From: Daejeonella sp.
GTDB lineage: Bacteria > Bacteroidota > Bacteroidia > Sphingobacteriales > Sphingobacteriaceae
Direction: 5' to 3'
DNA: 55,589 bases
Assembly: GCF_030684675.1 (NCBI RefSeq)
Contig: NZ_JAUXXZ010000080.1
Span: 1 to 55,589 of the forward strand
Position numbers and translations under genes: made by a program. Shown here in pieces: positions 236 to 19,151 of this stretch (positions within the stretch are counted from its first letter, which is position 1; the number at the start of each line of letters is the position of its first letter). Below the pieces are notes generated by a model. That model saw only the letters and a program-made list of their open reading frames with translations, was not told the origin of the DNA and ran no database searches.

Positions 236-415
236 CCAAAAATATTTATCCAGAAAACGTGCTTCTAATCTTTTCAAATCACAGCCATGACAGCTCAGGA
301 CAGACCTTATTTTTTTAATATTTAATTTGTGTTTGGTATTGGGCAAAGACTTTCTTTTCCTGATTAATTCTATATTTAATTATACAAATCAATAATTACG
401 AATAATTTCTTTTTG

Positions 416-1570
416 ATGGCTTCCACAGGATTTTTTTATTATTCAAAAATTTTTATTGGCTTGTGTATTCTGCCACTTTTGTCTTTCCAGACAAGCTCTG
501 AACTCAAATTCAGAAAACAATTGATTGCCTCAGAAAGTGCCGAGTCGGTAGGTGTTTTTGACGTAAATGGAGACCAAAATCCCGATATAATTTCAGGAAG
601 TTACTGGTATGAGGGTCCGGCATTTCTCAATCGTCATTTCATAGGTCAGGTAGAACGGGTAAGTGAATATTATGATGACTTTGCGACCATCCCAATGGAT
701 GTTGATGGCGATGAAAAAATAGATTTTATCACGGGTGGCTGGTTTAGTAAAACCCTTCGCTGGCGTAAAAATCCCGGTAATGAAAAAGAGTGGGCTTTAT
801 TGGACATTGCACAAACAGGTAATATTGAGACCATACGGGCATGGGATATCGATGGCGACGGTTTTGATGAAATAGTGCCCAATACTCCGGGTAATCCGCT
901 GATATATTACACCCTGAAACGGGATAAAAATAATAAGGCACTCGGGGAATTCGCAAAAACATTGGTTATTGAAAAGCATGGCCATGGTTTGGGCTTTGGA
1001 GATATTAATGGAGACGGAAGAGGGGATTTTATAGTTTCGGAAGGCTGGATCGAAGCTCCTGATAACAAAAACAATAAAGCATGGAAGTTGCATACAGATT
1101 TTGATCTGAAGGATGCCAGCATTCCTGTAATTGTTGCAGATGTGAATAAGGATGGATTAAATGACCTTATTGCAGGCCATGGTCACTCCTACGGTCTTTA
1201 TTGGTACGAACAAAAAAGAAAAGAAAAATCAGCTAAATTTATAAAACATCCAATAGATCCTTTTCATTCCCAGTTTCATACAATGGAATGGGTGGATATA
1301 GATAATGACGGGCAAATGGAACTGATTACCGGTAAACGTTACCGCGCCCATAATGGTAAAGACCCCGGAGGAAATGAATCGCCGGGACTCTATTATTTTA
1401 AATGGAACGGGGAATCATTCACCAAACACGTAATCAGTTACGGTCCTTTTGGAGAGGGCAAGGGTACAGGAATCTTCTTTAGTATCGCAGATCTGCATAA
1501 AACCGGCAGGAAAGATATCGTAGTTGCAGGAAAAGATGGCCTCTATGTATTTTTTAATGAGAGACCCTGA
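416..1570 (+). CDS. Secreted FG-GAP/VCBS beta-propeller protein
   Basis: An exported protein of 384 residues; the ATG at 416 directly follows an in-frame TTG and is the better start. Residues 1-30 form a signal peptide. Seven FG-GAP-type calcium loops follow at regular spacing (D-x-N/D-G-D near residues 49, 97, 143, 196, 241, 293 and a weaker one near 359), giving a seven-bladed propeller. The segment HGHGLGFGDINGDGRGDF resembles the propeller of fungal aldos-2-ulose dehydratase, but the cupin half of that enzyme is absent here. It is the first gene of the 12-gene sugar block. Whether it is catalytic or a sugar-binding scaffold cannot be told from sequence alone. Confidence 0.8.
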   Translation: MASTGFFYYSKIFIGLCILPLLSFQTSSELKFRKQLIASESAESVGVFDVNGDQNPDIISGSYWYEGPAFLNRHFIGQVERVSEYYDDFATIPMDVDGDEKIDFITGGWFSKTLRWRKNPGNEKEWALLDIAQTGNIETIRAWDIDGDGFDEIVPNTPGNPLIYYTLKRDKNNKALGEFAKTLVIEKHGHGLGFGDINGDGRGDFIVSEGWIEAPDNKNNKAWKLHTDFDLKDASIPVIVADVNKDGLNDLIAGHGHSYGLYWYEQKRKEKSAKFIKHPIDPFHSQFHTMEWVDIDNDGQMELITGKRYRAHNGKDPGGNESPGLYYFKWNGESFTKHVISYGPFGEGKGTGIFFSIADLHKTGRKDIVVAGKDGLYVFFNERP

Positions 1571-1645
1571 TTAAAAAAAAATCACCATCATCACAAAAAT
1601 CAATTTTATATTTAAAATACTTTAAAAATAGCAGTACATAAAATC

Positions 1646-4354
1646 ATGAAACGTAACACGTACTTAAAACTGGCAGGATTGCTGTCTATCGTCTTTTTTC
1701 TGGCAATGTCCTTTATTGATAACGTAGAAGAAACTAAGAAAAACAGAGTCAGAGAACTCGATCCGAAAGTTGAGAAACTGAAGTTATTGCCAAATTTCAA
1801 GGCAGAATATTTGTACAGCCCCTCTGAAAGCAAAAATGGCTCCTGGGTTGCGATGACTTTCGATCACAAGGGTCGAATGATTGCCTGCGATCAGTACGGC
1901 TACCTATACCGTTTAACTATTCCGCCAATTGGCACAGAATCAGTTAAATCAAAAGTAATTGTAGAAAGACTGGAGCTCAAAATTGCAGGTGATACCTCAA
2001 AAGCCAAAATAAAAATGGGCTATGCGCAGGGTTTGCTTTACGCATTCAATAGCCTTTACGTGATGGTTAACCATAAAAGTGATACCTCAATGGCTAAGAG
2101 TAGTGGTTTGTACCGACTCAAAGACACTGATAATGATGACCAATATGATCAAATAACTTTGCTCAAAGACCTGGTTACTCCGGGAGGTGAACATGGGCCT
2201 CACAGTATGGTCATCTCTCCAGATAAAAAATCAATTCATCTAATTGCCGGTAATCATGTTGATGTTCCAAAAATGGAGGCCTATCGTTTACCCGAAACAT
2301 GGAAAGAAGATAATTTATTCCCATTGATCAAAGATCCAAACGGACATGCCAATGATCGTTATGCACCGGGAGGTTTTGTTGTCAAAATTAATCCGGAAGG
2401 AACAAACTGGGAGTTAATCAGTGCAGGTTACCGAAATGCATTTGACCTTGCCTTTAATGAGGTTGGGGATATGTTTGTTTATGATGCAGACATGGAATGG
2501 GATTTTGGAATGCCCTGGTACAGGCCTACCCGCATCAGTCATTCAACCAGTGGTAGTGAATTTGGATGGCGCACAGGAAACAGTAAATGGTCGCCTGCTT
2601 ATCCGGATAACCTGCCGGCAATATTAAATATCGGGCAAGGCTCACCTACAAGTTTGTTTAGTGGAAATAATGCCCGATTCCCTGAAAAATACCGCCGGGG
2701 TCTGTTTGCCTTTGACTGGAGTTTCGGAATCATCTATGCCGTTCAACTGACCCCTAGCGGATCTTCTTACAAGGCAACAGCCGAAGAATTTATTTCTGGT
2801 GCACCCTTGCCTTTAACTGATGGTATTATCGGGCCTGATGGAGCTATGTATTTTTTAACCGGCGGTCGTAAACTGGATTCAGACCTTTATAGGGTCTATT
2901 ATGGCGAAAATAATTTAGCGAATGATCCACTAATTACTAAAACTCCTCCGGATATACTTCAGGCGAGAAATTTAAGACGGCAATTGGAAACCTTTCATGC
3001 CGGCCCAAATGCAAAAGCAATAGCTCTTGCCTGGCCAAACTTAAAAAACAAAGATCGTTATATCCGATATGCTGCCCGTATAGCAATGGAACATCAGCCG
3101 CTTTACCAATGGCAGGAAAAAGCATTCTTAGAGAAAGACCCTCAGATACTTACTCAAGCCATGATTGCTATGGCCAGAACAGGTAACAGGGGTTTACAGG
3201 TCAGGATGATTAATACATTGATGAACATCAACTACAATCTATTACCTGAATCTCAACAAATAGATGTTTTAAGGGCCTATGAACTGATAATTTTCAGAAT
3301 GGGTAAGCCCAATGATGCTGAAAAAGTTAAATTAAGCAGGTATTTGAATCAATTCTATCCTGCAAAAAGCAATGAACTAAATCGCTCATTCAGCAAGGTT
3401 TTAGTAGCCCTGGATGACCCTTTAGTCGTTCAAAAAACACTGACCTTACTTGATGGAGTCGTTCTGGACGTGGATGACCAAAAATCTTTCATGCAGTCTT
3501 CAGACTTAATTCTGCGTAATCCTCAATACGGACTTGACATTGCAGGAATGCTGGCCAAAACCCCACCTGCACAGCAGATTTATTACGTAACGGCATTAAG
3601 TGAAGCAAAAAATGGCTGGACAACAGCATTAAGGGAAAAATATTTCAAATGGTATTATACCGCATTTGGATATAAGGGTGGTAATAGCTTTATTGGTTTT
3701 ATCGATAAGGCGCGCAAAATGGCTTTAGCTAATCTGCCACAAGATCAAGTCGAGCATTATAATAAGATTTCGGGCAATGAATTACTGACTAATAATGGTA
3801 TGAAACTGGCCAGTGTGGGCAGCCCTAAAGGTCCGGGAAGAAACTGGAAAATAGATGAAGCTCTGGAAGTTGTTCAGAAAGATTCAACAGACAGAAACTT
3901 TGAGCAAGGTGAAATGTTGTTTAGTGCAACCCGCTGTATTTCATGCCACAGCATGAAAGGTGAAGGAGGTGCAGTTGGTCCGGCATTAAGCCAATTGGGA
4001 ACACGCTTCTCTGCCCGTGATATCCTGGAGTCTATTTTTGAGCCCAATAAAGTGATATCTGATCAATATGCTTATACTTCTTTTTACTTAAAGAATGGTG
4101 GTTCGGTAACCGGGAGACTGAAAAATGAAGATTCTGAAAAATATTATATTTCTCAAAATCCTTTTGCCCCACAAACATTGCGTGAGATAATTAAGAGTGA
4201 TGTGGTAAGAACCAGGATTTCTGATGTATCATCCATGTATCCGGGTATGGTCAATGGCTTAAATAAAGAAGAATTAAAGGACCTGATGGCCTACCTTATT
4301 TCAGGATCAAATAAAGATCATCAGGTCTATAAGCCGAAATTATTAAAGAAATAA
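1646..4354 (+). CDS. Exported propeller-HEAT-cytochrome c protein (PVC type)
   Basis: A 902-residue exported protein. An N-terminal signal/anchor (residues 1-28, no lipobox) precedes a glucose/sorbosone-dehydrogenase-like beta-propeller (about 45-425, with segments such as GYRNAFDLAFN and DGIIGPDGAMYFLTGG). A helical HEAT-like region (about 435-700) follows, then a C-terminal haem c domain with CISCH at residues 764-768. Met residues in SSMYPGMVNGL near 865 are candidate axial ligands. This is the architecture of the 'putative membrane-bound dehydrogenase/haem-binding' proteins abundant in Planctomycetes and Verrucomicrobia. It likely oxidises or binds a sugar in the periplasm or outside the cell and passes electrons on. 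The substrate is unknown. Confidence 0.8.
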   Translation: MKRNTYLKLAGLLSIVFFLAMSFIDNVEETKKNRVRELDPKVEKLKLLPNFKAEYLYSPSESKNGSWVAMTFDHKGRMIACDQYGYLYRLTIPPIGTESVKSKVIVERLELKIAGDTSKAKIKMGYAQGLLYAFNSLYVMVNHKSDTSMAKSSGLYRLKDTDNDDQYDQITLLKDLVTPGGEHGPHSMVISPDKKSIHLIAGNHVDVPKMEAYRLPETWKEDNLFPLIKDPNGHANDRYAPGGFVVKINPEGTNWELISAGYRNAFDLAFNEVGDMFVYDADMEWDFGMPWYRPTRISHSTSGSEFGWRTGNSKWSPAYPDNLPAILNIGQGSPTSLFSGNNARFPEKYRRGLFAFDWSFGIIYAVQLTPSGSSYKATAEEFISGAPLPLTDGIIGPDGAMYFLTGGRKLDSDLYRVYYGENNLANDPLITKTPPDILQARNLRRQLETFHAGPNAKAIALAWPNLKNKDRYIRYAARIAMEHQPLYQWQEKAFLEKDPQILTQAMIAMARTGNRGLQVRMINTLMNINYNLLPESQQIDVLRAYELIIFRMGKPNDAEKVKLSRYLNQFYPAKSNELNRSFSKVLVALDDPLVVQKTLTLLDGVVLDVDDQKSFMQSSDLILRNPQYGLDIAGMLAKTPPAQQIYYVTALSEAKNGWTTALREKYFKWYYTAFGYKGGNSFIGFIDKARKMALANLPQDQVEHYNKISGNELLTNNGMKLASVGSPKGPGRNWKIDEALEVVQKDSTDRNFEQGEMLFSATRCISCHSMKGEGGAVGPALSQLGTRFSARDILESIFEPNKVISDQYAYTSFYLKNGGSVTGRLKNEDSEKYYISQNPFAPQTLREIIKSDVVRTRISDVSSMYPGMVNGLNKEELKDLMAYLISGSNKDHQVYKPKLLKK

Positions 4355-4361
4355 AGCACAA

Positions 4362-4368
4362 GAGGAGA
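4362..4368 (+). promoter_or_regulatory. Strong Shine-Dalgarno supporting a TTG start
   Basis: The purine run GAGGAGA ends eight bases before the TTG at 4377. This is unusually strong for this genome, where most genes have weak ribosome-binding sites, and it supports TTG as the real start of the next gene; no ATG lies between. Confidence 0.6.
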
Positions 4369-4376
4369 TTATAATT

Positions 4377-5411
4377 TTGAACCAACAGTCCTGGCATAAT
4401 AAAATATCGAATACCAACCAATTGGGAGGTATTGAAACTTCTGTTCTGAATAATGGGGCCGGGCGTGGAACACGCATTGCCTGGATTAATACCGGGTCTG
4501 GTCTCCGGTTTAAAGTCGTAATAGACCGCGCAATGGATATAGCCGATGCATTTTATAATCAGCATAGCCTCGCCTGGCTGAGCCATTCGGGAATCAGCAC
4601 TGCACAGCCTTTATCGGATAAGGGAATCGATTGGCTCAGAACTTTTGGTGGTGGATTAGTTGTTACCTGCGGACTCAGCCATGTTGGGGGACCCGAAAAA
4701 GACGAATTTGGCGAACGTGGAATTCATGGACAAATAAGCAATACCCCTGCAGAAATTGTGTCCATAATTCAACCTGATCCCTTATCAGGGAATATGGAAA
4801 TGAGCATTAGCGGAATCATCAGGGAATCGCAGGCATTAGGAAACAGACTGGAATTAAGACGTACCATTTCTTCCACTTTGGGTAAATCCATAATCCGGAT
4901 TCAGGATGAGGTAATTAACCGTGGAAATACAGATGCACCGCATATGCTCTTATACCACTGTAATTTCGGCTGGCCCCTCATTGATGAAGGAACAAAAATA
5001 AAATGGAATGGCAAATGGAAGCCGCGTGATGGAAATCCAAATAAACTATTTAAAGAAGGGAATGATTTCCATACCTGTCCTGCCCCTTTAGATGATCACA
5101 GTGGAGCAGGAGAAGAAGTCGCCTTTATAGATATTGAAACAGATGAATCAGGCGTTTGCTCCTGCGGACTAGAGAATCCAAAAATTGGATTAAGCCTGAA
5201 TTTAAGATTCCTTAAAAAACAATTACCCTGCTTAACAAATTGGTTGCATTATGGAAAAGGGGAATATGTTGTCGGGCTCGAACCCGGCACAAATCCGCCT
5301 ATCGGGCAAAGCCGGGCAAGGCGGCAAAATGAATTAATCCTGCTTACTCCTGGAGAAAGCAGAAAATATGACTTAGAAATAGAAGTATTAACAAATAAAG
5401 AGGGCTATTAA
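4377..5411 (+). CDS. DUF4432 family mutarotase-like protein
   Basis: A protein of 344 residues with no signal peptide, starting at a TTG behind a strong ribosome-binding site. It matches in length and pattern the DUF4432 family of the galactose-mutarotase (aldose 1-epimerase) superfamily: VVIDRAMDIADAFYNQ near the N-terminus, GGGLVVTCGLSHVGGP around 90-105, ERGIHGQISNTPA around 115-130, and LLYHCNFGWPLIDEG around 190. Members bind sugars in a beta-sandwich, so an anomer- or keto-sugar-handling role in the cytoplasm fits. It lies 22 nt after the cytochrome gene and 32 nt before the cupin gene in the same block. The exact reaction is unknown. Confidence 0.8.
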   Translation: MNQQSWHNKISNTNQLGGIETSVLNNGAGRGTRIAWINTGSGLRFKVVIDRAMDIADAFYNQHSLAWLSHSGISTAQPLSDKGIDWLRTFGGGLVVTCGLSHVGGPEKDEFGERGIHGQISNTPAEIVSIIQPDPLSGNMEMSISGIIRESQALGNRLELRRTISSTLGKSIIRIQDEVINRGNTDAPHMLLYHCNFGWPLIDEGTKIKWNGKWKPRDGNPNKLFKEGNDFHTCPAPLDDHSGAGEEVAFIDIETDESGVCSCGLENPKIGLSLNLRFLKKQLPCLTNWLHYGKGEYVVGLEPGTNPPIGQSRARRQNELILLTPGESRKYDLEIEVLTNKEGY

Positions 5412-5443
5412 ATTTTAGCCAACAAAACAATTTCAATAAGAAT

Positions 5444-6649
5444 ATGAGTTTAGCAAAGAAAGCATTAGAACAAGGAAAAGGAATTCTCAGATTGGCACCA
5501 ACCTGGGTTCCCCGTTCATTTTGCGTACCGGGAAGAAGAATTAAGTTACACCCGGATGATTATTATGTACTCGGTGGGCAACGTGGTGGTATTGATGAAA
5601 GATGGTTATCATCTACCACTCCAGCACAAAACGGACCACTGACAGGGAAAAATGAAGGTTTAAGTCCGGTAGTTTTCAACGAGGGAGGAAAGGATGAGCA
5701 ATTTTTATTAAAAGATGCCATTGATGAGCTTAAGGGCGAAATTATCGGAGACCGCCTATGGAATGAACACCAAAGCTGGCCGATGTATTCCAAATTCTTT
5801 GACAATATGGGTCCCCTACCCCATCATATTCATCACAATGATGAACATGCTTCCAAAATCGGACAAAAAGGTAAACCTGAAGCCTATTATTTTCCACCAC
5901 AACTAAACAATCATGGCGGAGATTTTCCTTATACCTTCTTTGGTATCGCCCCGGGTACTACAAAAGCACAGATTCGGGAATGTCTGGTGAATTTTACAAA
6001 AGGCGATAATAAACTTACCACCTACTCTCAGGCATTTAAACTGGAACCCGGAACCGGATGGGATGTGCCTCCGGGCATGCTTCATGCACCCGGAAGTATG
6101 TGTACCTATGAACCGCAAAAAGCGTCCGACGTTTTCGCGATGTATCAATCCCTTGTCAATGAGGCTATTATACCTGAGGAGCTCCTTTGGAACGGAACTC
6201 CAAAGGACAGGATTGGCGATTATGACCAGTTGATGGAAGTCATCGACTGGGATTTGAATGTAAATCCGAATATTCTGGAAACCCGGTTTATGCTTCCGAA
6301 ACCTATGAAGCCTCAGGCTGAAATGGAATCTGAAGGATATATTGAGAACTGGATCTGCTACAGATCAGCGGCATTCAGCGCGAAAGAACTTACTGTATTA
6401 CCCGGACAAACAGTTACAATCAGGGATAGTGCCTGCTATGGCATGATCGTGATGCAGGGGCATGGTAAATTTGGGGTATGGGATATTGAGACTCCGGCTC
6501 TGATCAGATATGGGCAACTTACAAATGATGAGTTCTTTGTAACTGAAAAAGCTGCGAAAGAAGGCGTACGCATTAGCAACCCTTCCAAAACCGATCCAAT
6601 TGTTATACTGAAACATTTCGGTCCGGAAAACCCGGATCTCATTTTGTAA
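5444..6649 (+). CDS. Cupin (bicupin, phosphomannose-isomerase-like) protein
   Basis: A cytosolic protein of 401 residues. The first cupin carries a histidine cluster, HHIHHNDEHA (about 126-136), and the later motif VPPGMLHAPGS, which resembles the metal site of type I phosphomannose isomerases (H-x-H plus GxxHA). A second, shorter cupin-like fold spans about 300-395 (ELTVLPGQTVTIRDSACYG onward). The family is found beside Gfo/Idh/MocA and TIM-barrel sugar genes. A metal-dependent isomerisation of a keto-sugar is the likely job, but this is inferred. The gene is 32 nt from DUF4432 and 19 nt from the next TIM barrel, so co-transcription is likely. Confidence 0.7.
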   Translation: MSLAKKALEQGKGILRLAPTWVPRSFCVPGRRIKLHPDDYYVLGGQRGGIDERWLSSTTPAQNGPLTGKNEGLSPVVFNEGGKDEQFLLKDAIDELKGEIIGDRLWNEHQSWPMYSKFFDNMGPLPHHIHHNDEHASKIGQKGKPEAYYFPPQLNNHGGDFPYTFFGIAPGTTKAQIRECLVNFTKGDNKLTTYSQAFKLEPGTGWDVPPGMLHAPGSMCTYEPQKASDVFAMYQSLVNEAIIPEELLWNGTPKDRIGDYDQLMEVIDWDLNVNPNILETRFMLPKPMKPQAEMESEGYIENWICYRSAAFSAKELTVLPGQTVTIRDSACYGMIVMQGHGKFGVWDIETPALIRYGQLTNDEFFVTEKAAKEGVRISNPSKTDPIVILKHFGPENPDLIL

Positions 6650-6668
6650 TTATTAAAAAATATAAAAT

Positions 6669-7694
6669 ATGGCTGAGAACATTTATCCAAAACTTCACAA
6701 TGCAACATGGCCTGGCATTGTGGGAAAAGGTCCTGATTCAGAACCACCAATATCATTAGAGAAAATGCTTGAAATGACTGCCGCTGCAGAAGTCGACGGC
6801 GTTAAATTCGATGGCGTTGATGTTGGTCTTTTTGACCCATCAATAAATTTAGATGATCTGGATGGCATTAAAAGACTGGCTGATCAGGTAAGCAAATATA
6901 ATTTAGTAATTGGCAGTCTGGTAGCACCCATTTGGGGCGGACCGGCAATGGGTACAAAAGAAGATCGTGCAAATTTTGTTGATCAGGTACGTAAATCATG
7001 TGTTTATGGTCAAAAACTGAAGGAAATGGGTGTACGCCCATATGGTATAATCCGTATTGATTCGGCCAGCAGCGTTGAAAGCTGGGCTAAAGACCCGGTT
7101 AATAACACTAAACTGATTGCTCAAACTTTCCGTGAAGCATGTGATGTGGCAGCTGATTATGGTGAAAAGCTTGCCGCTGAAGGCGAAATTTGCTGGGGTG
7201 GTATGCATAGCTGGAGAGCAATGCTGGATACACTTGAAGCTGTAGATCGACCGAATATCGGCTTTCAGGCAGACATGTCACATACATTTCTGTATCTCCT
7301 TGGTTATAATGCGCCTGAGGATCGCATTTTACCATTTGATTATCAATGGGATGATCGTGAAACGCTGACTGAGGGACTGAAAAAATTAACAGCTGCATTG
7401 CGTCCATGGACTTTAGATTTTCACGTTGCTCAGAATGATGGAACAGCTTATGGTTCAGGTTCACATGATAAAACCGGAAGACATTGCCAGGCAACCGATC
7501 CAAATGGTAAATTAGATATCTCTATCGACGCCGGGCATTGGCTGCGCAATGAAAATGGAGAATTGACCAAAGCATTTAAACACATTTGCTGGGATGGTTG
7601 CATGTTTCCAAATGCTGTTTTAGAGCAACAAAAAACATGGAATGATATTTTGGCGGCGATGATCAAGGTTCGAAATTTAAATAGCTGGTCTTAA
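6669..7694 (+). CDS. Xylose-isomerase-like TIM barrel (sugar isomerase/epimerase)
   Basis: A cytosolic TIM-barrel protein of 341 residues in the AP-endonuclease-2/xylose-isomerase-like superfamily. Likely metal ligands are the Glu in [10 protein letters not shown] (about 171), the Asp/His in [10 protein letters not shown] (about 200), the His in [10 protein letters not shown] (about 258) and the Asp/His in ISIDAGHWL. It is longer than typical hydroxypyruvate isomerases (about 260) and ends with an unusual [12 protein letters not shown] loop. Its place directly before a Gfo/Idh/MocA oxidoreductase recalls the pairing of such barrels with 3-keto-sugar oxidoreductases in O- and C-deglycosylation pathways. 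Substrate unproven. Confidence 0.8.
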
Positions 7695-7728
7695 GCAATT
7701 GATTAATTGAAATTTTCAGAATACAATA

Positions 7729-8871: not shown

Positions 8872-8930
8872 TCAATTGGAAAACAGAGTCAAAAATCATT
8901 GAATATTAATCCATTTTATAGCTATTGATC

Positions 8931-9713: not shown

Positions 9714-9739
9714 TTCTATAGGCAAATAAAAACCTAAGC

Positions 9740-12700
9740 ATGAAAAAAAACCTGTTTTCAATATTGCTGGCTCTGTTAGTGATATCAAGTATCATACTCA
9801 TAAAGGCTTGTAGTTCAGCTAGTTCAAAACAGGTTTATGACCCGGCCGATACCTTACTTACTGAAAGTCAGAAACGCTTAGCTTCCAATGCTTTAAAAGG
9901 CCTTGTTATCAGCCCCGGTCTGCAAATTCAGACTATGGCAACAGAGCCAACATTAATAAACCCAACAAATATTGATGTTGATGAACAGGGAAGGGTATGG
10001 GTGACTGAAGCTTATAATTATCGTTTTCAAATCAACAATAACAAACCAAGAACTGAAGGTGATCGAATCTTGATTCTGGAGGATAAAGATGGGGATGGTC
10101 ACCTCGAAACAAGTAAAGTTTTTTATCAGGGTCCTGAACTAAATGCTCCTTTAGGTATCGCTGTACTGGGCAATAGGGTAATAATATCACAAAGCCCTTA
10201 TGTATGGATTTTTTATGATGATAATGGGGATGATAAAGCGGATCGTAAAGAGATACTTTTTCAGGGTATTGGTGGCGAACAGCATGACCATGGTATGCAC
10301 TCCTTTACTTTTGGGCCTGATGGCAAATTATACTTCAATTTTGGTAATTCAGGACAAACGCTAAAAGATAAAAACAACAAGGTTGTATTGGATCAGGATG
10401 GGGATGAAATTGGCCCCGGAAAGTATCGTGAGGGAATGGTATTCCGTTCTGATCCGGATGGCTCTAATGTAGAATGCCTGGGACACAATTTCAGAAATAA
10501 TTTTGAACTTGCTGTAGATAGTTACGGAACAATCTGGCAAAGCGATAATGACGATGATGGCAACCGGGGTGTACGCATTAACTATGTGATGGATTATGGA
10601 AATTATGGCTACAAGGATGAAATGACCGGTGCGAGCTGGCAGGCAAAAAGGACCAATCTGGAAGATTCTATTCCTTTGCGCCATTGGCATCTCAATGATC
10701 CAGGAGTAGTCCCAAATCTTTTACAAACCGGAGCAGGCTCACCTACCGGCATTTTACTTTATGAAGGTTCCTTACTGCCTGAGCCCTTTCAAAATCAAAT
10801 AATTCACTCCGATCCTGGCCCAAATGTGGTTCGGGCATATCCTGTAAAGAAAAACGGTGCCGGTTATACTGCGGGCATCCTCAACATTCTGAAGGGAGAA
10901 AATGACCAATGGTTCCGTCCATCAGACGTATGCATTGCTCCGGATGGTTCCCTGATTGTTGCTGATTGGTACGATCCCGGAGTTGGAGGTCATAGGGTTG
11001 GGGATTTACAGAGAGGACGTATCTACAGAATCGCTCCTGATGTTTCGCAGTATAAAATCCCCGGGTACGATTACAGCACACCTGGCGGAGCAATTATCGC
11101 ACTCCAGAATCCAAATCTTGCTGTAAGAAGGCATGCATGGCTAGCTTTACATGGAATGGGGAAAAAGGCAGTTCCCGGACTTGAAAAATTATGGCGAAAA
11201 GCTTCCAACCCAAGGATGCGTGCCAGAGCGTTGTGGGTTTTGGTAAAAATGCCAAATGGAAACAAATATATTAGCGAAGCCATAAAAGATAATAATCCTG
11301 ATATTAGAATAGCAGGAATCAGGGCGGCAAGACAATTAAAATTGGATCTCATTCCATTGTTAAAAAAACTAGCAGGTGATCAGGATACACAGGTTAGAAG
11401 AGAATCAATTATAGCTTTAAGACATAATAAATCGCCGGAAGCAGCTGAATTATGGGCCGGGCTTGCCGATCAATATGATGGGAATGATAGATGGTATTTA
11501 GAGGCTTTGGGTATTGCTGCAGACAGACAATGGGACAGTTTTTTTGAAGCTTATTTACAGGTGAATAAGAATCCATTACTCAACCCTGCCGGGAGAGACA
11601 TCATTTGGCGGGCACGTACCGAAAAGTCTCTTCCATTTCTTGCAAAACTGGCTTCTGATAATCAAAATGACCTTAAATCAAGATTAAGGTATTTCCGTGC
11701 TTTCGACTTTCAAACCGGGACGGAAAAATCCAAAATTCTGGTAAAAATGATTGAAGATAATCCTGCAGGCAATATTGAGTTCAAAAGTCTGGTTTTAAAT
11801 CATCTTGATATCAAAATTGCACTTCAATCTCCCCTGGCGAGGCAAACACTAATGGAGGTATTAAAGGTTTTTTCAGGAAAAGCCGACTATCTCGATTTGG
11901 TTAGACGCTATGAACTGCAAAGTGAAACCGCAAACCTCCTGAAATTGGCTATTGCAAAATCAAATGAGCCAATTGGTGTTGATGCAGCACGATTATTACT
12001 CGAACTGAAAGGAACTCCAGTACTAAATGATGCCTTAAATACTTCTGATTCAAATCAGATCAACTCAGTTTTGACAGCCTTGGGTGGTGTTGGAAATGCA
12101 GCGTCTGTTAGAATATTAGAGAATATTAGCCTTTGGGATCAACAGAATAAGGAAGTTCGCGAAAAAGCGGCTGAAATGCTTGGGAAAAGTCGAACCGGGG
12201 AAGATAGAGCACTTGAACTGTTGCGGACAAAAAAAGCTCCATCAGACCTTGTTCCATATTTTGTTGCAGGACTAAAGGGAAGCAGACGAAAAGCTGTTTA
12301 TGAGGAATCTTTAACCTTTTTACCCGAAACAGCAAAAAATATCAAACCAAAGCTAACAGTTACATTAAATGAATTACTCGCTTTAACCGGGAATTCGCAG
12401 AATGGTGCGGCAGTTTTTAAAAGATCCTGTAATGTTTGCCATCAGGTGGGTAAAGAAGGCTTTGATGTCGGTCCGAAACTAACAGAAATTGGTTCTAAAC
12501 TACCCAAAGAAGGCTTGTTTGATGCTATTATTAATCCTTCAGCAGGAATTAGTTTTGGGTTCGAAACCTGGCTCATTGAATTGAAGGATGGCTCAAGCCT
12601 GATGGGAATCATCTCCAGCAGAACTCCAATAGAAATAGAGCTCAGGTTCCCGGGAGGAACAAATCAAAAAATCTTTACCACTAATATTAAAACAATCAGG

Positions 12701-12805
12701 ATTCTGTCTGAATCAATGATGCCTGAAGGCTTGCATGAAACAATGACCAGGCAAGAGCTTGCAGATATCATTCAATACATGGCCACGTTAAAGAAAAAAG
12801 GATAA
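9740..12805 (+). CDS. Lipoprotein propeller-HEAT-cytochrome c protein (PVC type)
   Basis: A 1021-residue protein with a lipoprotein signal (lipobox ending KAC at Cys24). Residues about 50-430 form the 'membrane-bound dehydrogenase' propeller typical of Pirellula/Verrucomicrobium proteins (NIDVDEQGRVWVTEAYNYR, EDKDGDGH, FTFGPDGKLYFNFGNSG, DVCIAPDGSLIVADWYDPG). HEAT-like repeats follow (about 455-860). The C-terminal haem domain has CNVCH at 897-901 and the late SMMPEGLHETMTRQELADII segment that supplies the distal Met. As a lipoprotein it likely sits at the outer membrane. It lies 26 nt after the DUF1080 gene, which suggests paired function. Substrate and electron acceptor are unknown. Confidence 0.82.
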   Translation: MKKNLFSILLALLVISSIILIKACSSASSKQVYDPADTLLTESQKRLASNALKGLVISPGLQIQTMATEPTLINPTNIDVDEQGRVWVTEAYNYRFQINNNKPRTEGDRILILEDKDGDGHLETSKVFYQGPELNAPLGIAVLGNRVIISQSPYVWIFYDDNGDDKADRKEILFQGIGGEQHDHGMHSFTFGPDGKLYFNFGNSGQTLKDKNNKVVLDQDGDEIGPGKYREGMVFRSDPDGSNVECLGHNFRNNFELAVDSYGTIWQSDNDDDGNRGVRINYVMDYGNYGYKDEMTGASWQAKRTNLEDSIPLRHWHLNDPGVVPNLLQTGAGSPTGILLYEGSLLPEPFQNQIIHSDPGPNVVRAYPVKKNGAGYTAGILNILKGENDQWFRPSDVCIAPDGSLIVADWYDPGVGGHRVGDLQRGRIYRIAPDVSQYKIPGYDYSTPGGAIIALQNPNLAVRRHAWLALHGMGKKAVPGLEKLWRKASNPRMRARALWVLVKMPNGNKYISEAIKDNNPDIRIAGIRAARQLKLDLIPLLKKLAGDQDTQVRRESIIALRHNKSPEAAELWAGLADQYDGNDRWYLEALGIAADRQWDSFFEAYLQVNKNPLLNPAGRDIIWRARTEKSLPFLAKLASDNQNDLKSRLRYFRAFDFQTGTEKSKILVKMIEDNPAGNIEFKSLVLNHLDIKIALQSPLARQTLMEVLKVFSGKADYLDLVRRYELQSETANLLKLAIAKSNEPIGVDAARLLLELKGTPVLNDALNTSDSNQINSVLTALGGVGNAASVRILENISLWDQQNKEVREKAAEMLGKSRTGEDRALELLRTKKAPSDLVPYFVAGLKGSRRKAVYEESLTFLPETAKNIKPKLTVTLNELLALTGNSQNGAAVFKRSCNVCHQVGKEGFDVGPKLTEIGSKLPKEGLFDAIINPSAGISFGFETWLIELKDGSSLMGIISSRTPIEIELRFPGGTNQKIFTTNIKTIRILSESMMPEGLHETMTRQELADIIQYMATLKKKG

Positions 12806-12881
12806 AGATTTAAAATATCTAATAAATCATATTAAATTAATCTTTTATTCATTGAATATCAATCCGTTAATAATACATAAA

Positions 12882-13730
12882 ATGAAATTTGGCATTAATA
12901 CCTTTCTGTTCACATCTCCGTTCACAAATGAGAGTGTTAATTTGTTCCCTAAATTCAAAGCATGGGGATTTGACTCTGTGGAAATTGCAATTGAGGATCC
13001 CTCTCATATAGATCCGCTTATGATCAGGAAGGCATTAGATGAGAGTGGTTTGAAATGTGGCTCTATCTGTGCCGCCATGGGTCCGGGTCGTGATTTAAGA
13101 GGATCATCCGAAGATCAGCAGACAGCCATTACCTACATAAAAAGCATTCTCAACATGATGCCTGTCTTAGGTTGCGGCATACTGATCGGACCCCTTTACT
13201 CTGCTGTAGGACGTGCCGAATTAGTGAGTAAGGAAGATTATGCAAAACAATGGGAAACTGTTGCCACTCATTTAAAAATGCTGGCAGACTACGCTGAAAA
13301 ATTAGGTGTAAAAATGGCGATTGAGCCGCTGAACAGATATGAAACCGATTTTATTAATACCTGTGAACAAGGTTTGAAAATGGTTAACCAGGTGAACAGC
13401 AAAGCTTTGATGCTTCAACTGGACACTTATCACATGAATATTGAAGAAAAAGATCCCTATCAGGCGATTTTAAATGCAGGAAGTAAATTGGGGCATTTCC
13501 ACGCGTGTGGCTCAGACCGTGGAACACCGGGTGGCGATCAAATCAATTGGGACAAAATTAGTTCCGCCTTGAATCAGGTGAAGTATGACGGTGAAGTAGT
13601 AATAGAATCCTTTATTCCGGATATTGAAATGATTGCTAAGGCCGCCTCCATTTGGAGGCAATTTGAACCTTCACAGGAAGATATAGCAATTAAAGGGTTA
13701 AAATTTTTAAGATCTTGTTTAATTAAATAG
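12882..13730 (+). CDS. D-tagatose/D-psicose 3-epimerase-like TIM barrel
   Basis: A cytosolic protein of 282 residues; ATG at 12882 (MKFGINTFLF) is preferred over a TTG thirty bases upstream because family members start at this point. The catalytic metal tetrad of ketose 3-epimerases can be followed: Glu in MAIEPLNRYETDF (about 147), Asp in LQLDTYHMNIEE (about 180), His in GHFHACGSDRGTPG, and Glu in VVIESF (about 241). The string DTYHMNIEE is a hallmark of this family. Epimerisation at C3 makes sense beside enzymes thought to make 3-keto-sugars. The gene follows the cytochrome lipoprotein by 76 nt. Confidence 0.82.
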   Translation: MKFGINTFLFTSPFTNESVNLFPKFKAWGFDSVEIAIEDPSHIDPLMIRKALDESGLKCGSICAAMGPGRDLRGSSEDQQTAITYIKSILNMMPVLGCGILIGPLYSAVGRAELVSKEDYAKQWETVATHLKMLADYAEKLGVKMAIEPLNRYETDFINTCEQGLKMVNQVNSKALMLQLDTYHMNIEEKDPYQAILNAGSKLGHFHACGSDRGTPGGDQINWDKISSALNQVKYDGEVVIESFIPDIEMIAKAASIWRQFEPSQEDIAIKGLKFLRSCLIK

Positions 13731-13766
13731 TACCGGAGTTGTAACCTATATTTTAAACCTCAAGTT

Positions 13767-14882
13767 ATGGATTCAAGACGTAATTTTTTGCAAACATTAA
13801 GTGCTTCAATACTCGCTTTATCTATACCCCAACACGGTTTTGCGAGCATTGAGGACTTTTACAGTAAGCCTTATGAAGGCCCCGTTCTTCGGGTTGCAAT
13901 CATGGGCCTGGGTAGTTACGGAACCCGGGTAGCTGAGGCTATGCAAGCCTGTAAAATGGCTAAATTAGTCGGGCTAATCAGTGGTACGCCTTCTAAAATA
14001 AAGAACTGGCAGAGCAAGTATAATATTCCAGAGAAAAACTGTTACAATTACGAGAATTTCGATCTCATTAAAGATAATCCCGACATTGATGCAGTGTACG
14101 TAATTACTCCGAATGCCCTGCATCACGATCAGGTAATACGTGTAGCCAAAGCTGGCAAACATGTTATTTGCGAAAAACCAATGGCTTTGAATGCCAAAGA
14201 AGGGCAGGAAATGATAGAGGCCTGCAGGAAAGCGAATGTCAAGTTACTCGTAGGATACCGAATGCATTTTGAGCCAAAAACCCTGGAAATAATCCGGATG
14301 CGGAAAGAAGGGGAATTGGGGAAAATTATGTTTTTTCAGGGATTATGCGGCTTCAAAATTGGCGACCCTACTCAATGGCGCTTGAATAAGCAATTGGCCG
14401 GAGGGGGCTCATTAATGGACATTGGCATCTATGCAATAAATGGGGCACGTTATATGGTAGGCGAAGAGCCTGTTTGGGTAACTGCACAGGAAACCAAGAC
14501 TAACCCCGAAAAATTTAAAGAAGGCGTTGACGAAAGCATTCAATTTCAATTCGGCTTTCCTGGCGGAGCAGTAGCATCCTGTTTGTCTAGTTACAATATG
14601 AGTAATCTGGATCGCTTTTTCTTAGCTGCTGAAAAAGGATTTGCCGAATTACAACCCTCAACAGGTTATGGACCCATCAGGGGCCGCACTAACAAAGGAG
14701 AATTAAATCATCCGCATGTTACTCACCAGACTGTACAAATGGAAAAAATGGCTGGTATCATTTTGACAAATGAACCCGCCCAGGTACCTGTAGATGGCGA
14801 AGAAGCTCTAAAAGACCTGAAAATTATTGATGCGATCTATTTAGCAGTTAAAACAGGCAAAAAAATAAATTTAAAATTGTAA
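13767..14882 (+). CDS. Tat-exported Gfo/Idh/MocA oxidoreductase
   Basis: A dehydrogenase of 371 residues with an N-terminal twin-arginine signal (SRRNFLQTLSASILALS), so it should be folded with its cofactor in the cytoplasm and exported. The Rossmann motif is VAIMGLGSYGTRVAEAM (about 43-59), with ICEKPMALNAKEG near 133-145 and the catalytic-domain GGGSLMDIGIYAINGARYM near 211-229. Architecture and signal match periplasmic glucose-fructose oxidoreductase, in which NADP(H) stays bound and is recycled by a second sugar. It could be the C3 oxidase feeding DUF1080, which is inference. Confidence 0.87.
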   Translation: MDSRRNFLQTLSASILALSIPQHGFASIEDFYSKPYEGPVLRVAIMGLGSYGTRVAEAMQACKMAKLVGLISGTPSKIKNWQSKYNIPEKNCYNYENFDLIKDNPDIDAVYVITPNALHHDQVIRVAKAGKHVICEKPMALNAKEGQEMIEACRKANVKLLVGYRMHFEPKTLEIIRMRKEGELGKIMFFQGLCGFKIGDPTQWRLNKQLAGGGSLMDIGIYAINGARYMVGEEPVWVTAQETKTNPEKFKEGVDESIQFQFGFPGGAVASCLSSYNMSNLDRFFLAAEKGFAELQPSTGYGPIRGRTNKGELNHPHVTHQTVQMEKMAGIILTNEPAQVPVDGEEALKDLKIIDAIYLAVKTGKKINLKL

Positions 14883-14927
14883 ATGATTTTCTGGTAAACC
14901 CCTTACAATAAAATAAGCACCAAGAAC

Positions 14928-17900
14928 ATGATAATACCTCAGAAAAAGAATTTGAAAGTACTGCTCTACACCCTAACCCTGGTGCTAATTGCATTAACTG
15001 CGTTTAAGTTTACACAATCAGATTCAACTGCCTTAAAAATTAAAAAAGGAGATCACATCATTTTAATTGGAAATAATCTTGGTTCAAGGATGATGAACTA
15101 CGGTTATTTTGAGACAGAGATGCAGCTTCGGTATCCCGATAGTATGCTGTATATCAGGAACATGTGCGATGGTGGAGATACACCCGGTTTCAGGGCTCAT
15201 TCGGGTCGTGCATTACCCTGGGCATTCCCGGGTGCTGAAAAATTTCAGACCGAACTTGCAAAAAACTCAAACAGCGAAGGCTTTTATGATAGTCCGGATA
15301 CCTGGATCACAAACCATAAGGCCGATATTATCATTGCATTTTTTGGATATAATGAGTCTTTTCAAGGCCCAATGGGCCTTGAAAACTATAAAGCTGAGCT
15401 TGAAGCCTTCGTAATTCATACCTTAAAACAAAAGTATAACGGTAAGTCATCTCCACAACTAGCCCTTGTTTCACCCATTGCTTTTGAAGACCTGTCGGGT
15501 CAGTTAGATCTTCCAAATGGCAAAACTGAAAATAAAAACCTGGAACTCTACTCGCTGGCCATGAAAGAAGTTGCAGCGAAATATAAAGTTCACTATTTAG
15601 ATGTCTTCACAACCATTAAGCAGTGGTATTTGGCCAATGAAAAACCAATGACCATCGATGGATCACAGTTTACAGAAGCGGCCTATGCTAAATTTGCACC
15701 GTTCTTAGCGGATGGGCTTTTCGGTAAAACAAAAGTAAAACCTGCGGTTGAAAGCAATCGCAAATTGGTTCATGCTGCTGTTCAGGAGAAAAACTGGATG
15801 TGGCATAACGATATTAAAATCCCCAATGGGGTGCATGTTTTTGGGCGCAGATATAACCCCTTTGGACAGGATAATTATCCTACTGAGCTTAAAAAGATCA
15901 GGGAGATGACGGTTATCAGGGATCAGGCTATCTGGATGGCTTTAAAAGGAGAAAAGATGGATCTGGATGCTGCTGACAAGAATACAATAGCCCTTCCAAA
16001 AATTGAAACGAACTACAATCCTGATAAAAACGGCAGTCTTAAATACCTTTATGGAGAAGAAGCCCTGGCCAAATTTAAATTACCTCCGGGATACAAAATA
16101 GATTTATTTGCTTCTGAAGTAGAATTTAAAGACGTAGAGAATCCGGTTCAATTATCCTTTGACAATAAAGGTAGACTATGGGTTGCAACTATGCCGACTT
16201 ACCCTCACTGGCAACCGGGAGATAAAAAGCCGAATGATAAAATCATCATTCTCGAAGATACCAATGGCGATGGCAAAGCCGACAAGCAAACAACTTTTTT
16301 AGATGGCATTCATTTACCAGTAGGCTTCGAAATAGCGCCTGAAGGTGTCTATGTTTCTCAGGGCACTAATCTGGTACTTTACAAAGACACCAATGGCGAT
16401 AGTAAAGCTGATTCGAAAGAAATTCTTTTGAGTGGTTTTGATGATCACGATACGCACCATGCACATCATGCCTATACCACAGATCCTTCGGGTGCAATTT
16501 ACATGGGAGAAGGAGTATTCTTACATACGAATGTAGAAACAGCTTATGGCCCGGTTCGCGCCACAAATGGCGGTTTTTACAGATATAATCCTGTGAGACA
16601 TCACCTTGAGCGCACTGCTCAACTCTCCATACCGAATCCCTGGGGAATTGCCTTTGATGATTGGGGACAGAACTTCTTTGCTGAAACTTCCGGACCGGAT
16701 GTACTTTGGATGATGCCCGGTTCTATCAAACCGAGATATGGAGTAGCCACGCACAAATCGACCAACCTGATTGAGGATAAACACCGTGTTCGCCCTACTT
16801 CGGGGCTTGAATTTATTTCAAGCCGTCATTTTCCGGATGAGGTTCAGGGGGATATGCTTATCAACAACACCATTGGATTCCTTGGTACTAAAGAGCATAT
16901 CATGCAGGAAAAAGGTACCGGCTATGCCACAAAACACCGTCAGGATCTGCTGGTTTCAGAAGACAGAAATTTTCGTCCCGTTGATATGGAATTTGCACCG
17001 GATGGCTCCCTCTATATTGTTGACTGGCATAACGTTCTGATTGGGCATATGCAGCATAATGTACGTGATCCATTGCGCGACCATTCCCATGGTCGTATTT
17101 ATCGCATCACCTATCCTTCCAGACCATTAGTAAAACCGGCTAAGATAGATGGCGCAGGCATTGAACAACTGCTTAACAATCTTAAGTTACCTGAATATCG
17201 TACCCGCTACCGTACCCGCAGGGAGCTTCGTGGACGTCCGGTTAATCAGGTGCTTGCACAGATCACAAGCTGGACTGCCAGACTTGATAAAAAAGACCCT
17301 CAATATGAGCATCATTTGCTGGAAGCATTATGGGTAAGCTGGGGACTAAATAAGGTGGATCAGAAACTCCTTCGCCAGCTACTCCAGGCAAAGGACTACC
17401 GGGCACGTGCGGCTGCTGTACGCGTTTTAAGATATACGGGGCATCAGGTTGCTGATCAGACAAGCTTGCTGATGAAGGCAGCTGCTGATGTGCATGGACG
17501 TGTAAGGCTTGAAGCAATTGTCACAGCTTCCTGGCTTGGAAAAGACAAAGGCCTGCCCATCGTAATGGAAGCAGGTAAAAAACCGCTTGACGAATGGATG
17601 GTTCCGGCCTATGAAACAGCCATTGCTCACCTCAATGGATATGAACGCGCAGTTAAAAAGGAAGAGCCCATTTTAACCGATCTTAAAGGAGCTGAACGCG
17701 AGCTTTTCGTCAAAGGAAAAGCAATTTATGCACGTGATGGCTTTTGCAATACCTGTCACCAGAGTGACGGAAAAGGGCTAGGCAGCTCAGGATTCCCACC
17801 GCTTGCAGGAACAAAATGGGTAACGGGAAATGAAGAAAGATTGATTAAACTCGTGTTGAAGGGGCTTTATGGCCCAATAGAAGTACTTGATAAAAAATAT

Positions 17901-18107
17901 CCCGGACAAGTACCAATGACACCTTTTGCAGGAATGCTGAACGATGAAGAAGTTGCAGCAGTATTGACTTATGTGCGAAATTCATTTGGGAACAAGGCTT
18001 CGGCAATTTCTCCTGAAAAAGTAAAAATGACACGAGCATCAGTAAAAGATAAAACAGGCTTTTACTCACCTGAAGAATTGCTAAATCAACATCCATTAGA
18101 GAAATAA
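14928..18107 (+). CDS. Degenerate SGNH + propeller + HEAT + cytochrome c fusion
   Basis: A 1059-residue exported protein with four parts: signal peptide (about 8-28); an SGNH/GDSL-like domain (about 38-265); a membrane-bound-dehydrogenase-type propeller (about 370-720, with QLSFDNKGRLWVATMPTYPH, EDTNGDGKAD and MEFAPDGSLYIVDWHN); HEAT-like helices (about 735-905); and a class-I-like cytochrome c with CNTCH at 940-944 and a distal Met in VPMTPFAGMLND. The SGNH core reads IGNNLGSR where a catalytic Ser is expected, and DGSQ (244-247) where D-x-x-H is expected, so the hydrolase site looks dead. Related fusions occur in Planctomycetes. Likely an extracytoplasmic sugar-oxidising or binding cytochrome. 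Confidence 0.82.
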   Translation: MIIPQKKNLKVLLYTLTLVLIALTAFKFTQSDSTALKIKKGDHIILIGNNLGSRMMNYGYFETEMQLRYPDSMLYIRNMCDGGDTPGFRAHSGRALPWAFPGAEKFQTELAKNSNSEGFYDSPDTWITNHKADIIIAFFGYNESFQGPMGLENYKAELEAFVIHTLKQKYNGKSSPQLALVSPIAFEDLSGQLDLPNGKTENKNLELYSLAMKEVAAKYKVHYLDVFTTIKQWYLANEKPMTIDGSQFTEAAYAKFAPFLADGLFGKTKVKPAVESNRKLVHAAVQEKNWMWHNDIKIPNGVHVFGRRYNPFGQDNYPTELKKIREMTVIRDQAIWMALKGEKMDLDAADKNTIALPKIETNYNPDKNGSLKYLYGEEALAKFKLPPGYKIDLFASEVEFKDVENPVQLSFDNKGRLWVATMPTYPHWQPGDKKPNDKIIILEDTNGDGKADKQTTFLDGIHLPVGFEIAPEGVYVSQGTNLVLYKDTNGDSKADSKEILLSGFDDHDTHHAHHAYTTDPSGAIYMGEGVFLHTNVETAYGPVRATNGGFYRYNPVRHHLERTAQLSIPNPWGIAFDDWGQNFFAETSGPDVLWMMPGSIKPRYGVATHKSTNLIEDKHRVRPTSGLEFISSRHFPDEVQGDMLINNTIGFLGTKEHIMQEKGTGYATKHRQDLLVSEDRNFRPVDMEFAPDGSLYIVDWHNVLIGHMQHNVRDPLRDHSHGRIYRITYPSRPLVKPAKIDGAGIEQLLNNLKLPEYRTRYRTRRELRGRPVNQVLAQITSWTARLDKKDPQYEHHLLEALWVSWGLNKVDQKLLRQLLQAKDYRARAAAVRVLRYTGHQVADQTSLLMKAAADVHGRVRLEAIVTASWLGKDKGLPIVMEAGKKPLDEWMVPAYETAIAHLNGYERAVKKEEPILTDLKGAERELFVKGKAIYARDGFCNTCHQSDGKGLGSSGFPPLAGTKWVTGNEERLIKLVLKGLYGPIEVLDKKYPGQVPMTPFAGMLNDEEVAAVLTYVRNSFGNKASAISPEKVKMTRASVKDKTGFYSPEELLNQHPLEK

Positions 18108-18128
18108 ACCTATTCAGAAGCTATAAAA

Positions 18129-19151
18129 ATGAACAATCAAAATAACAGGCGGCTACTAGTCATTCTGATCACATTACTATATACAAGCCTTTCATTTGCT
18201 CAGAGCAATCCAAAATGGGTTGTGTATCAGGGAAATGAAGGACCCGGAAAAGGTAAACATATTGTATTTGTGAGTGGGGATGAAGAATACCGCTCGGAAG
18301 AGGGTTTACCCATGATGGCAAAAATTTTGGCAGAACGCCATGGCTTTAAGTGCACTGTTTTATTTGCTGTAGACCCAAAGACTAATAATATTGATCCAGA
18401 TAATCAAACAAATATCCCCGGACTTGAACACTTAAAGACAGCCGACCTGATGGTTATGCTATTACGCTTCAGGGAATTACCTGATGAGCAAATGAAACAT
18501 ATTATAGATTATACCAATTCCGGAAAACCAATTGTAGCCTTGCGCACCTCAACACATGCATTCAGCTATTCGCGCAACAAACAAAATTTGTATGCTAAAT
18601 ACAGCTATAACAGCAAGATTAAAGGCTGGGAAGGTGGATATGGCAAGCAGGTGCTTGGTGAAACATGGATCAATCATCATGGCGTACATGCCAAGGAAGG
18701 TACCCGGGCATTGATCAATGGACTTGTGAAAGATCATCCAATTTTGCGGGGAGTAAAAGACATCTGGACCCCAACTGATGTATATGGTATTCTGGGCCTG
18801 CCAAATGATGCTCAGGTTTTAATATTCGGACAAACCACAATGGGAATGACCTCTACATCCCCTTTGAGCTATGAAAAGTCGGTCATGCCGGTAGCATGGA
18901 TAAGGAACTACAGTTCAGCAAGTGGTAAAAAAGCGAAGATTTTTACAACCACTATGGGGTCTTCAGTGGATCTGATCAGTGAAGACCTGCGCAGATTACT
19001 TGTTAATGCTTGCTATTGGGCAACAGGTATTGAACAGCAAATTTCTGCACAAAATAATGCTCAACTGGTTGGTGAGTACAATCCAACCATGTTTGGTTTC
19101 GGAAAATATCAGAGAGGGCTAAGTCCCTCAACTTTTGAATGGAAGAAATAA
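18129..19151 (+). CDS. Exported ThuA-like domain protein
   Basis: A protein of 340 residues with a cleavable signal (about 1-25, ending SFAQ) followed by a ThuA-like glutamine-amidotransferase-fold domain (KHIVFVSGDEEYRSEEGLP, ADLMVMLLRFRELPDEQM, GKPIVALRTSTHAFSYSRN). ThuA in Sinorhizobium acts in trehalose catabolism through 3-keto-trehalose, which fits the block. Exported ThuA-like proteins are common neighbours of propeller cytochromes in PVC bacteria and Bacteroidota. It is the last gene of the block, 21 nt after the cytochrome fusion, and converges on accA with 19 nt between stop codons. Confidence 0.82.
   Translation: MNNQNNRRLLVILITLLYTSLSFAQSNPKWVVYQGNEGPGKGKHIVFVSGDEEYRSEEGLPMMAKILAERHGFKCTVLFAVDPKTNNIDPDNQTNIPGLEHLKTADLMVMLLRFRELPDEQMKHIIDYTNSGKPIVALRTSTHAFSYSRNKQNLYAKYSYNSKIKGWEGGYGKQVLGETWINHHGVHAKEGTRALINGLVKDHPILRGVKDIWTPTDVYGILGLPNDAQVLIFGQTTMGMTSTSPLSYEKSVMPVAWIRNYSSASGKKAKIFTTTMGSSVDLISEDLRRLLVNACYWATGIEQQISAQNNAQLVGEYNPTMFGFGKYQRGLSPSTFEWKK

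Follow-up and report, generated by a model that had tools for sequence, protein, structure and literature searches.

A conserved six-gene sugar locus with a candidate respiratory-linked haem propeller oxidase in Daejeonella

We analysed a 55,589-nucleotide (nt) stretch of DNA from Daejeonella sp. (the window; contig NZ_JAUXXZ010000080.1, here C65 of an 84-contig genome), in which twelve plus-strand open reading frames (ORFs), g01 to g12, span positions 413–19151 and mix sugar enzymes with haem c proteins. Six of these genes belong to a sugar locus that is genuinely co-conserved in diverse Bacteroidota and that includes a credible candidate for a respiratory-linked oxidase, a combination that varies the 3-keto-glycoside theme. 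The core begins with g02 (1646–4354), which has a probable export signal, a propeller (residues 44–420), a helical HEAT-like region (435–710) and a haem c domain (736–890). It continues with g03 (DUF4432; 4377–5411), g04 (a ManA-like bicupin; 5444–6649), g05 (TIM1, a TIM barrel with an AP_endonuc_2 match; 6669–7694), g06 (Gfo1, Gfo/Idh/MocA; 7729–8871) and g07 (8925–9713). The last of these has a probable export signal and matches the DUF1080 or 3-keto-disaccharide hydrolase family (PF06439) over its full length (124.2 bits, cut-off 26.8; profile positions 1–187 of 187), and is related to 4jqt and 8rr2 in a search of the PDB.

The accessory genes flank this core. Upstream lies g01 (413–1570), whose product has an FG-GAP propeller and a probable export signal, and downstream lie g08 (9740–12805), a PVC-type haem protein with TIGR02604, HEAT and TIGR02603 regions (in Pfam, a DUF7133 propeller plus cytochrome c); g09 (TIM2; 12852–13730), a TIM barrel resembling tagatose/psicose 3-epimerases and also matching AP_endonuc_2; g10 (Gfo2; 13767–14882), a second Gfo/Idh/MocA protein with an RR (Tat-like) signal; g11 (14928–18107), which joins a GDSL-like N-terminus (weak, below the Pfam cut-off) to a DUF7133 propeller and cytochrome c; and g12 (18129–19151), a ThuA-like protein with a probable export signal. 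There is one CxxCH motif each in g02, g08 and g11. With mechanically assigned start codons, the successive gaps are 75, 22, 32, 19, 34, 53, 26, 46, 36, 45 and 21 nt, which agrees with the one-strand arrangement and gaps of 19–76 nt in the original prediction. Its list of domains also held: Pfam bears out the FG-GAP, DUF4432, TIM-barrel, Gfo, DUF1080 and haem c assignments, whereas the bicupin and ThuA labels rest on relatives and the g02 propeller on a structural model.

The block is longer than first drawn. Its 3' limit is indeed 19151, beyond which accA lies on the opposite strand, but in the region 5' of g01 (1–412) the first 78 bases are identical to the last 78 of another contig of the same genome, C46 (4,864 bp). 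That contig carries two genes upstream of the block, encoding a membrane cytochrome (DUF2231-PSCyt1-PSCyt2-PSD1) and then a DUF1501 protein, and no further ORF of at least 130 aa. The same order recurs in four relatives (L001, L002, L003 and L005), where genes for a protein of 836 aa and for DUF1501 precede g01 (in L003 the contig starts at the former, which has 669 aa); compared with L001, the DUF1501 protein of C46 is 98% identical and the other protein 94%. Because the contig break cut the block and two of its genes are on C46, the locus comprises 14 genes or more. An interval of 573 bp separates the stop codon of DUF1501 from g01, and in it, near the contig break, lie hairpins (GACCCTGAAGGGGTC at 126–140; other strand, 215–232) that are perhaps repeat elements. 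A TTTG/TAnnTTTG promoter was not matched on the plus strand 5' of g01. Sigma-70-like sites (43 vs. 51 expected) and terminator-like sites (24 vs. 19) are no proof of an operon.

We compared the locus across relatives with the bicupin as bait, keeping the best 80 of 592 (L027, whose bicupin was missed by the ORF caller, was left out of the 80). Counts come from the 53 loci in which the bicupin is flanked on both sides by 8 kb or more (another 26 fell short of 8 kb on a side). Since only 80 of the 592 relatives were kept, these counts lean towards close relatives of the bait: bicupin identity across the 80 is 82–98%, and the closest, at 96–98%, are Sphingobacteriales assemblies, some labelled Daejeonella. 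Identity limits, set after the tables had been viewed, were 26% for TIM2, 28% for g01, 30% for g12 and 45–70% for the other genes of the twelve. DUF4432, TIM1 and Gfo1 were each present in all 53 loci, DUF1080 in 52 (50 on the strand of the bicupin) and g02 in 47 (46), and all six core genes lay on one strand in 45 of 53. Accessory genes were scarcer: TIM2-like genes in 15, g01-like in 13, g11 in 11 (9 on the same strand), g12-like in 11, and g08 and g10 in 2 each. The upstream pair was similarly infrequent (C46-type cytochrome, 10; DUF1501, 9). Transport genes accompanied part of the loci, with SusC and SusD in 30 each and an ABC ATPase, permease and binding protein in 18, 18 and 17. Thus g02, DUF1080, DUF4432, the bicupin, TIM1 and Gfo1 form a conserved core, and g01 and g08–g12 are a variable add-on. 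The twelve genes do not travel as the single unit that had been proposed, a possibility that these counts rule out; in contrast, the expected co-conservation of DUF1080 with CxxCH propeller genes was borne out (52 and, for g02, 47 of 53). In a separate set of 53 loci with all six genes, pairwise protein distances correlated (Spearman 0.28–0.63, each above the best of 300 permutations), to which shared descent of the hosts can contribute.

The co-occurrence of core genes also exceeds chance in an evenly drawn sample of 247 genomes from the phylum. The bicupin was matched in 22 of them: 8 at ≥50% identity, a limit likewise set after viewing the tables and a count that includes the own genome, 7 at 36–40%, and 7 as weak partial matches (E 3e-5 to 6e-4). 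A true orthologue is therefore present in about 3% of the sample. Of 7 genomes with g02 at ≥50%, 6 hold a bicupin at ≥50% (p = 7e-10; 2e-8 without the own genome), as do 7 of the 9 with TIM1 (p = 3e-11; 7e-10 without the own genome). Four of the seven other genomes with a bicupin at ≥50% (G182, G162, G076 and G194) have the order g02-DUF1080-DUF4432-bicupin-TIM1-Gfo1, with two additional genes ahead of Gfo1 in G182; the window differs in that DUF1080 follows Gfo1. In G190 the other five core genes lie together and g02 is on a separate contig. G171 has DUF4432, the bicupin, TIM1 and Gfo1 with weaker relatives of g02 (39%) and DUF1080 (32%) nearby, and in G200 the bicupin contig is merely 3.7 kb long. 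The sample includes a single further genome of the genus; it had no bicupin, g02 or TIM1 match at the limits used, and the locus is therefore patchy.

The bicupin had no Pfam match even at E 10, and a single-sequence search of the PDB returned nothing at E 10. A profile of its family picks up class I mannose-6-phosphate isomerases (PMI; best E 0.0041, 1qwr), and tblastn finds plasmid genes annotated as class I PMI (4e-7 over 41%). H128, H130, E146 and H214, which we take to be metal ligands, are invariant in 22 of 22 sequences. The AlphaFold2 (AF2) model was poor (predicted local distance difference test, pLDDT, 55), and only profile evidence was therefore used. An Arthrobacter plasmid gene is 33% identical to the bicupin over 96%, so the family extends beyond Bacteroidota. 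For five of the seven genomes with distant bicupins (36–40%; L110–L114), no other core gene was found nearby at blastp 1e-8. In L111–L114, bicupin relatives (34–37% by blastp) sit in another shared set of genes that by eye are kinase-, oxidoreductase- and hydrolase-like; as this set is shared, the bicupin family has a second context.

Among the isomerase candidates, TIM2 has tagatose 3-epimerases as its nearest matches, and the 3-keto-glucoside 4-epimerase 6wn6 ranks lower; a single-sequence PDB search with TIM1 found nothing at E 0.01. The g12 protein has no Pfam match itself; two relatives match ThuA (5e-12 and 4.5e-17). A ThuA-family gene (5.9e-33) weakly similar to g12 lies outside the block at 23550–24395 on the minus strand.

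The candidate oxidase is g02. Pfam recognises its cytochrome c domain, with the haem motif CISCH at 764–768 and Met864, and the propeller appears in the AF2 model (pLDDT 79). By structure comparison the modelled propeller falls in the sGDH/Asd/AA12 fold family; g02 is thus predicted to have a sugar-dehydrogenase fold fused to HEAT repeats and cytochrome c. H183, R263, N264 and the haem ligands are invariant in 65 of 65 sequences of the g02 family. In L107, a plastocyanin/azurin-like gene (4471–4929, minus strand) adjoins a weaker g02 homologue and might encode an electron carrier.

Similar pairings occur elsewhere in the own genome, which has 13 DUF1080 matches on 10 contigs and 11 DUF7133 matches. 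On 5 of the 10 contigs (C21, C36, C65, C83 and C16) a CxxCH protein of at least 650 aa lies within about 5 kb of DUF1080; none was seen on C80, C22, C29, C67 or C9, where coverage of C22 on one side of DUF1080 extends for just 0.8 kb and the whole of C67 measures 8.8 kb. Pfam GSDH matches the C83 protein (923 aa) at 134.5 bits and the C36 protein (1,127 aa) at 118.4 bits (cut-off 25), and both carry cytochrome c; the C21 protein has DUF7133, and the C16 protein has cytochrome c only. On C83 (L131:3369–6137), the GSDH-PKD-cytochrome c-CBM6 protein adjoins the DUF1080 gene. The region C36:22001–39671 (L127) holds an FAD-enzyme fragment, a TIM barrel, a ThuA-GSDH-cytochrome c fusion, a Gfo-like gene, a small CxxCH protein and DUF1080, and is a second oxidative sugar locus; a LacC-like gene lies just outside it, at C36:20318.

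Taken together, these features suggest a two-compartment, redox-assisted locus for glycoside use built on the six-gene core, a mechanism that as a whole we consider possible, if somewhat short of an even chance. Outside the cytoplasm, the quinoprotein-type propeller of g02, with g08 in this strain, would oxidise a hydroxyl of a sugar or glycoside. Electrons would pass to the protein's own haem c, then to the C46 membrane cytochrome or another periplasmic carrier, and on to respiration. DUF1080, judging from its family, would cleave the keto-glycoside. Uptake of the products would depend on a SusCD pair together with an importer of the ABC or MFS type; such genes adjoin the core in some relatives but are absent from the window block. 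Gfo1, TIM1, DUF4432 and the ManA-like bicupin would then act in the cytoplasm to reduce, isomerise and mutarotate the keto-sugar towards central metabolism. The division between compartments qualifies the claim of extracytoplasmic oxidation with which we started: judged by hydropathy and by eye rather than with a trained predictor, g01, g02, g07 and g12 have probable export signals and g10 an RR motif, but hydropathy revealed none in DUF4432, the bicupin, TIM1, Gfo1 or TIM2. Likewise, the proposed junction with exported cytochromes gains from the sugar-dehydrogenase fold of g02 with its fused cytochrome c, the upstream membrane cytochrome gene and the two GSDH–cytochrome c fusions that C36 and C83 carry close to DUF1080. 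These favour a respiratory link; the electron route itself is one that we infer, and extracytoplasmic oxidation of sugars may be a direct source of electrons for respiration. A bolder and more doubtful proposal, which we advance only tentatively, is that the g02 family represents a quinohaemoprotein glycoside dehydrogenase of a new class. With scavenged pyrroloquinoline quinone (PQQ) or some other cofactor, it would act on intact glycosides, oxidising them perhaps at C3, and send electrons through its own haem c and the DUF2231-PSCyt cytochrome to respiration.

Several observations weigh against the two-compartment mechanism. The gene is missing from 6 of the 53 core loci, and from the same strand in 7, and the C46-type cytochrome family is present in only 10 of 53 and here lies across hairpins from g01. 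The fold margin is small (19.2 vs. 18.8, a tie), AA12 enzymes score 17.2–17.7 among unrelated propellers, and non-enzymes such as HHIP share the fold. The Arg-Asn pair aligns with 2ism very weakly (E 2.9), and H183 was placed as the candidate catalytic His by the sGDH motif rather than by superposition. Enzymes of the sGDH type oxidise aldoses at C1, not C3. Finally, PqqE exceeded its cut-off in 0 of 18 genomes with g02, and also in 0 of 14 controls, which lacked a valid positive control; PQQ would therefore be scavenged, or the cofactor would be another. The corresponding PqqC test was void, with 0 of 18 genomes matching but no match in any control genome either.

The 3-keto step might instead depend on nicotinamide or occur elsewhere, through Gfo1, Gfo2 or both, or through a distant LacABC-type flavoprotein, with the haem propellers used for something else, for instance binding or sensing. 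The closest PDB entries to Gfo1 are 4h3v and 6a3f, the latter presumably of the levoglucosan dehydrogenase kind. Its closest named equivalog model is levoglucosan dehydrogenase (NF052479; 324 bits, below the cut-off of 650), described in passages of PMC7676230 as a C3 oxidiser, and BT2158 is, according to the relevant part of PMC11300592, a periplasmic glycoside 3-dehydrogenase. Gfo2 is closest to aldose-aldose and glucose-fructose oxidoreductases (GFOR; 5a02, 1.1e-87; 1ofg, 6.8e-71) and has SRRNFL near its N-terminus; it is probably exported and of the GFOR type, binding nicotinamide tightly. LacC-like genes (PF13618) exist on C36, C21 and C58, the C36 copy about 12 kb from a DUF1080 gene, and passages of PMC9007349 already pair LacABC with DUF1080. 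However, Gfo1 is unlikely to precede an exported DUF1080 because it shows no export signal, Gfo2 is found in only 2 of 53 loci, the window contig has no LacC-like gene, and g02 is conserved alongside the core. We judge this explanation unlikely, though it is the best of the alternatives to oxidation by g02.

It is also conceivable that the haem propeller proteins cleave glycosides themselves, as glycosidase-like enzymes or internally redox-assisted lyases, with a structural or regulatory haem. In g08, TIGR02604 (313.8 bits, cut-off 122.2) and TIGR02603 (124.3, cut-off 68.15) both mark a PVC-type haem-binding CxxCH protein. Neither g02 nor g11 carries both marks: g02 is above the cut-off for TIGR02603 (82.4) and below it for TIGR02604 (68.1), and g11 exceeds it for TIGR02604 (231.6), with no TIGR02603 among the matches listed. 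A Verrucomicrobia protein that shares its domains with g08, Lac161_ORF7 (TIGR02604, HEAT_2 and cytochrome c), was purified and released glucose from lactose with a Km of 1.8 mM (PMC5342196). Cleavage accounts for this result at least as well as oxidation does, and the result is the chief evidence against oxidation by g02. Yet it is a single report with a glucose-oxidase readout and, in the passages concerned, no mutants (PMC5342196); moreover, all sequences of the g02 family retain the haem motif and Met864, and g02 itself falls below the TIGR02604 cut-off. Direct cleavage by these proteins seems improbable to us. We hold it equally improbable that the block is a mosaic of the core, the cytochrome–DUF1501 pair and a g08–g12 set with other substrates: g08 is absent from the close relative L001 and g10 from L005 despite collinear flanks in both, g11, g12 and a g09-like gene form a separate run in L052, L069 and L078, and hairpins separate DUF1501 from g01, but all twelve genes share one strand with gaps of at most 75 nt and, over the extent of their loci, L001, L002 and L005 otherwise preserve the gene order.

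Only recently has the 3-keto-glycoside route been recognised as an alternative to ordinary glycosidases, and a 2024 Nature paper reportedly concerns such a pathway in gut bacteria. If the haem-fused propeller is an oxidase, respiratory electrons would be gained outside the cytoplasm, without NAD, as a glycoside is broken. The g02 route would then be a patchy, phylum-wide and undescribed form of respiratory glycoside cleavage in Bacteroidota, in which DUF1080 does the cleaving and the ManA-like bicupin serves as a dedicated downstream isomerase, and would give a testable function to the PVC-type haem family and to a strongly conserved bicupin that has no Pfam model. Bifunctional rhamnulose-1-phosphate aldolase genes lie near the core in Zobellia uliginosa (L026, equivalent to L103:562–2664), in L046 (blastp) and at L107:5761–8007; they hint at a deoxysugar product and are too rare to build on. 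Elsewhere in the window, a gene at 39808–41010 (minus strand) encodes a DUF6786 protein of unknown function (516 bits).

We found no publication in PMC that links DUF1080 with haem propellers of the g02 kind, in a search that left subscription journals mostly outside its scope and whose listed cytochrome matches concern ordinary cytochromes c. Further related literature includes parts of PMC11003636 and PMC5673643. With the PQQ sugar dehydrogenases (sGDH, Asd and AA12, as covered in passages of PMC6881810 and PMC6881789), g02 shares the predicted propeller fold, and its candidate His and Arg-Asn residues are conserved within its own family; CcPDH, described there, is a quinohaemoprotein too, with haem b. 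Unlike these enzymes, g02 has HEAT repeats and haem c, and identity is 12–18% in the six top PDB rows. The PVC-type proteins, including Lac161_ORF7 with its reported lactose cleavage (PMC5342196, in part), resemble g08 more than g02, which passes TIGR02603 and not TIGR02604. The levoglucosan lgdA-B1-B2-C genes and the OGE operon of A. tumefaciens (passages of PMC7676230, PMC10066097 and PMC10628242) resemble the locus in having two TIM barrels, two Gfo proteins and a logic of oxidation, elimination, hydration and reduction, with ABC importers nearby as in part of the relatives. They differ in that Gfo1 scores below the levoglucosan dehydrogenase cut-off, and the passages concerned make no mention of DUF1080, the bicupin, DUF4432 or haem propellers. 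The Bacteroides BT2157/BT2158 pathway for 3-keto-disaccharides (relevant parts of PMC9007349 and PMC11300592; NCBIfam BT_2158/BT_2159) likewise combines DUF1080 with Gfo/Idh/MocA, but Gfo1 (27.3/34.6 bits) and Gfo2 (36.5/32.2) fall far short of the respective cut-offs of 750 and 650, and the window adds cytochromes, the bicupin and DUF4432. Finally, in the lactose route of Caulobacter, also present in Pedobacter and Indibacter, the authors tie periplasmic C3 oxidation to an exported DUF1080 hydrolase, with epimerases and a reductase nearby (PMC9007349, passages concerned); there the oxidase is LacABC, whereas the candidate in the window is a propeller of predicted sugar-dehydrogenase fold that carries its own haem.

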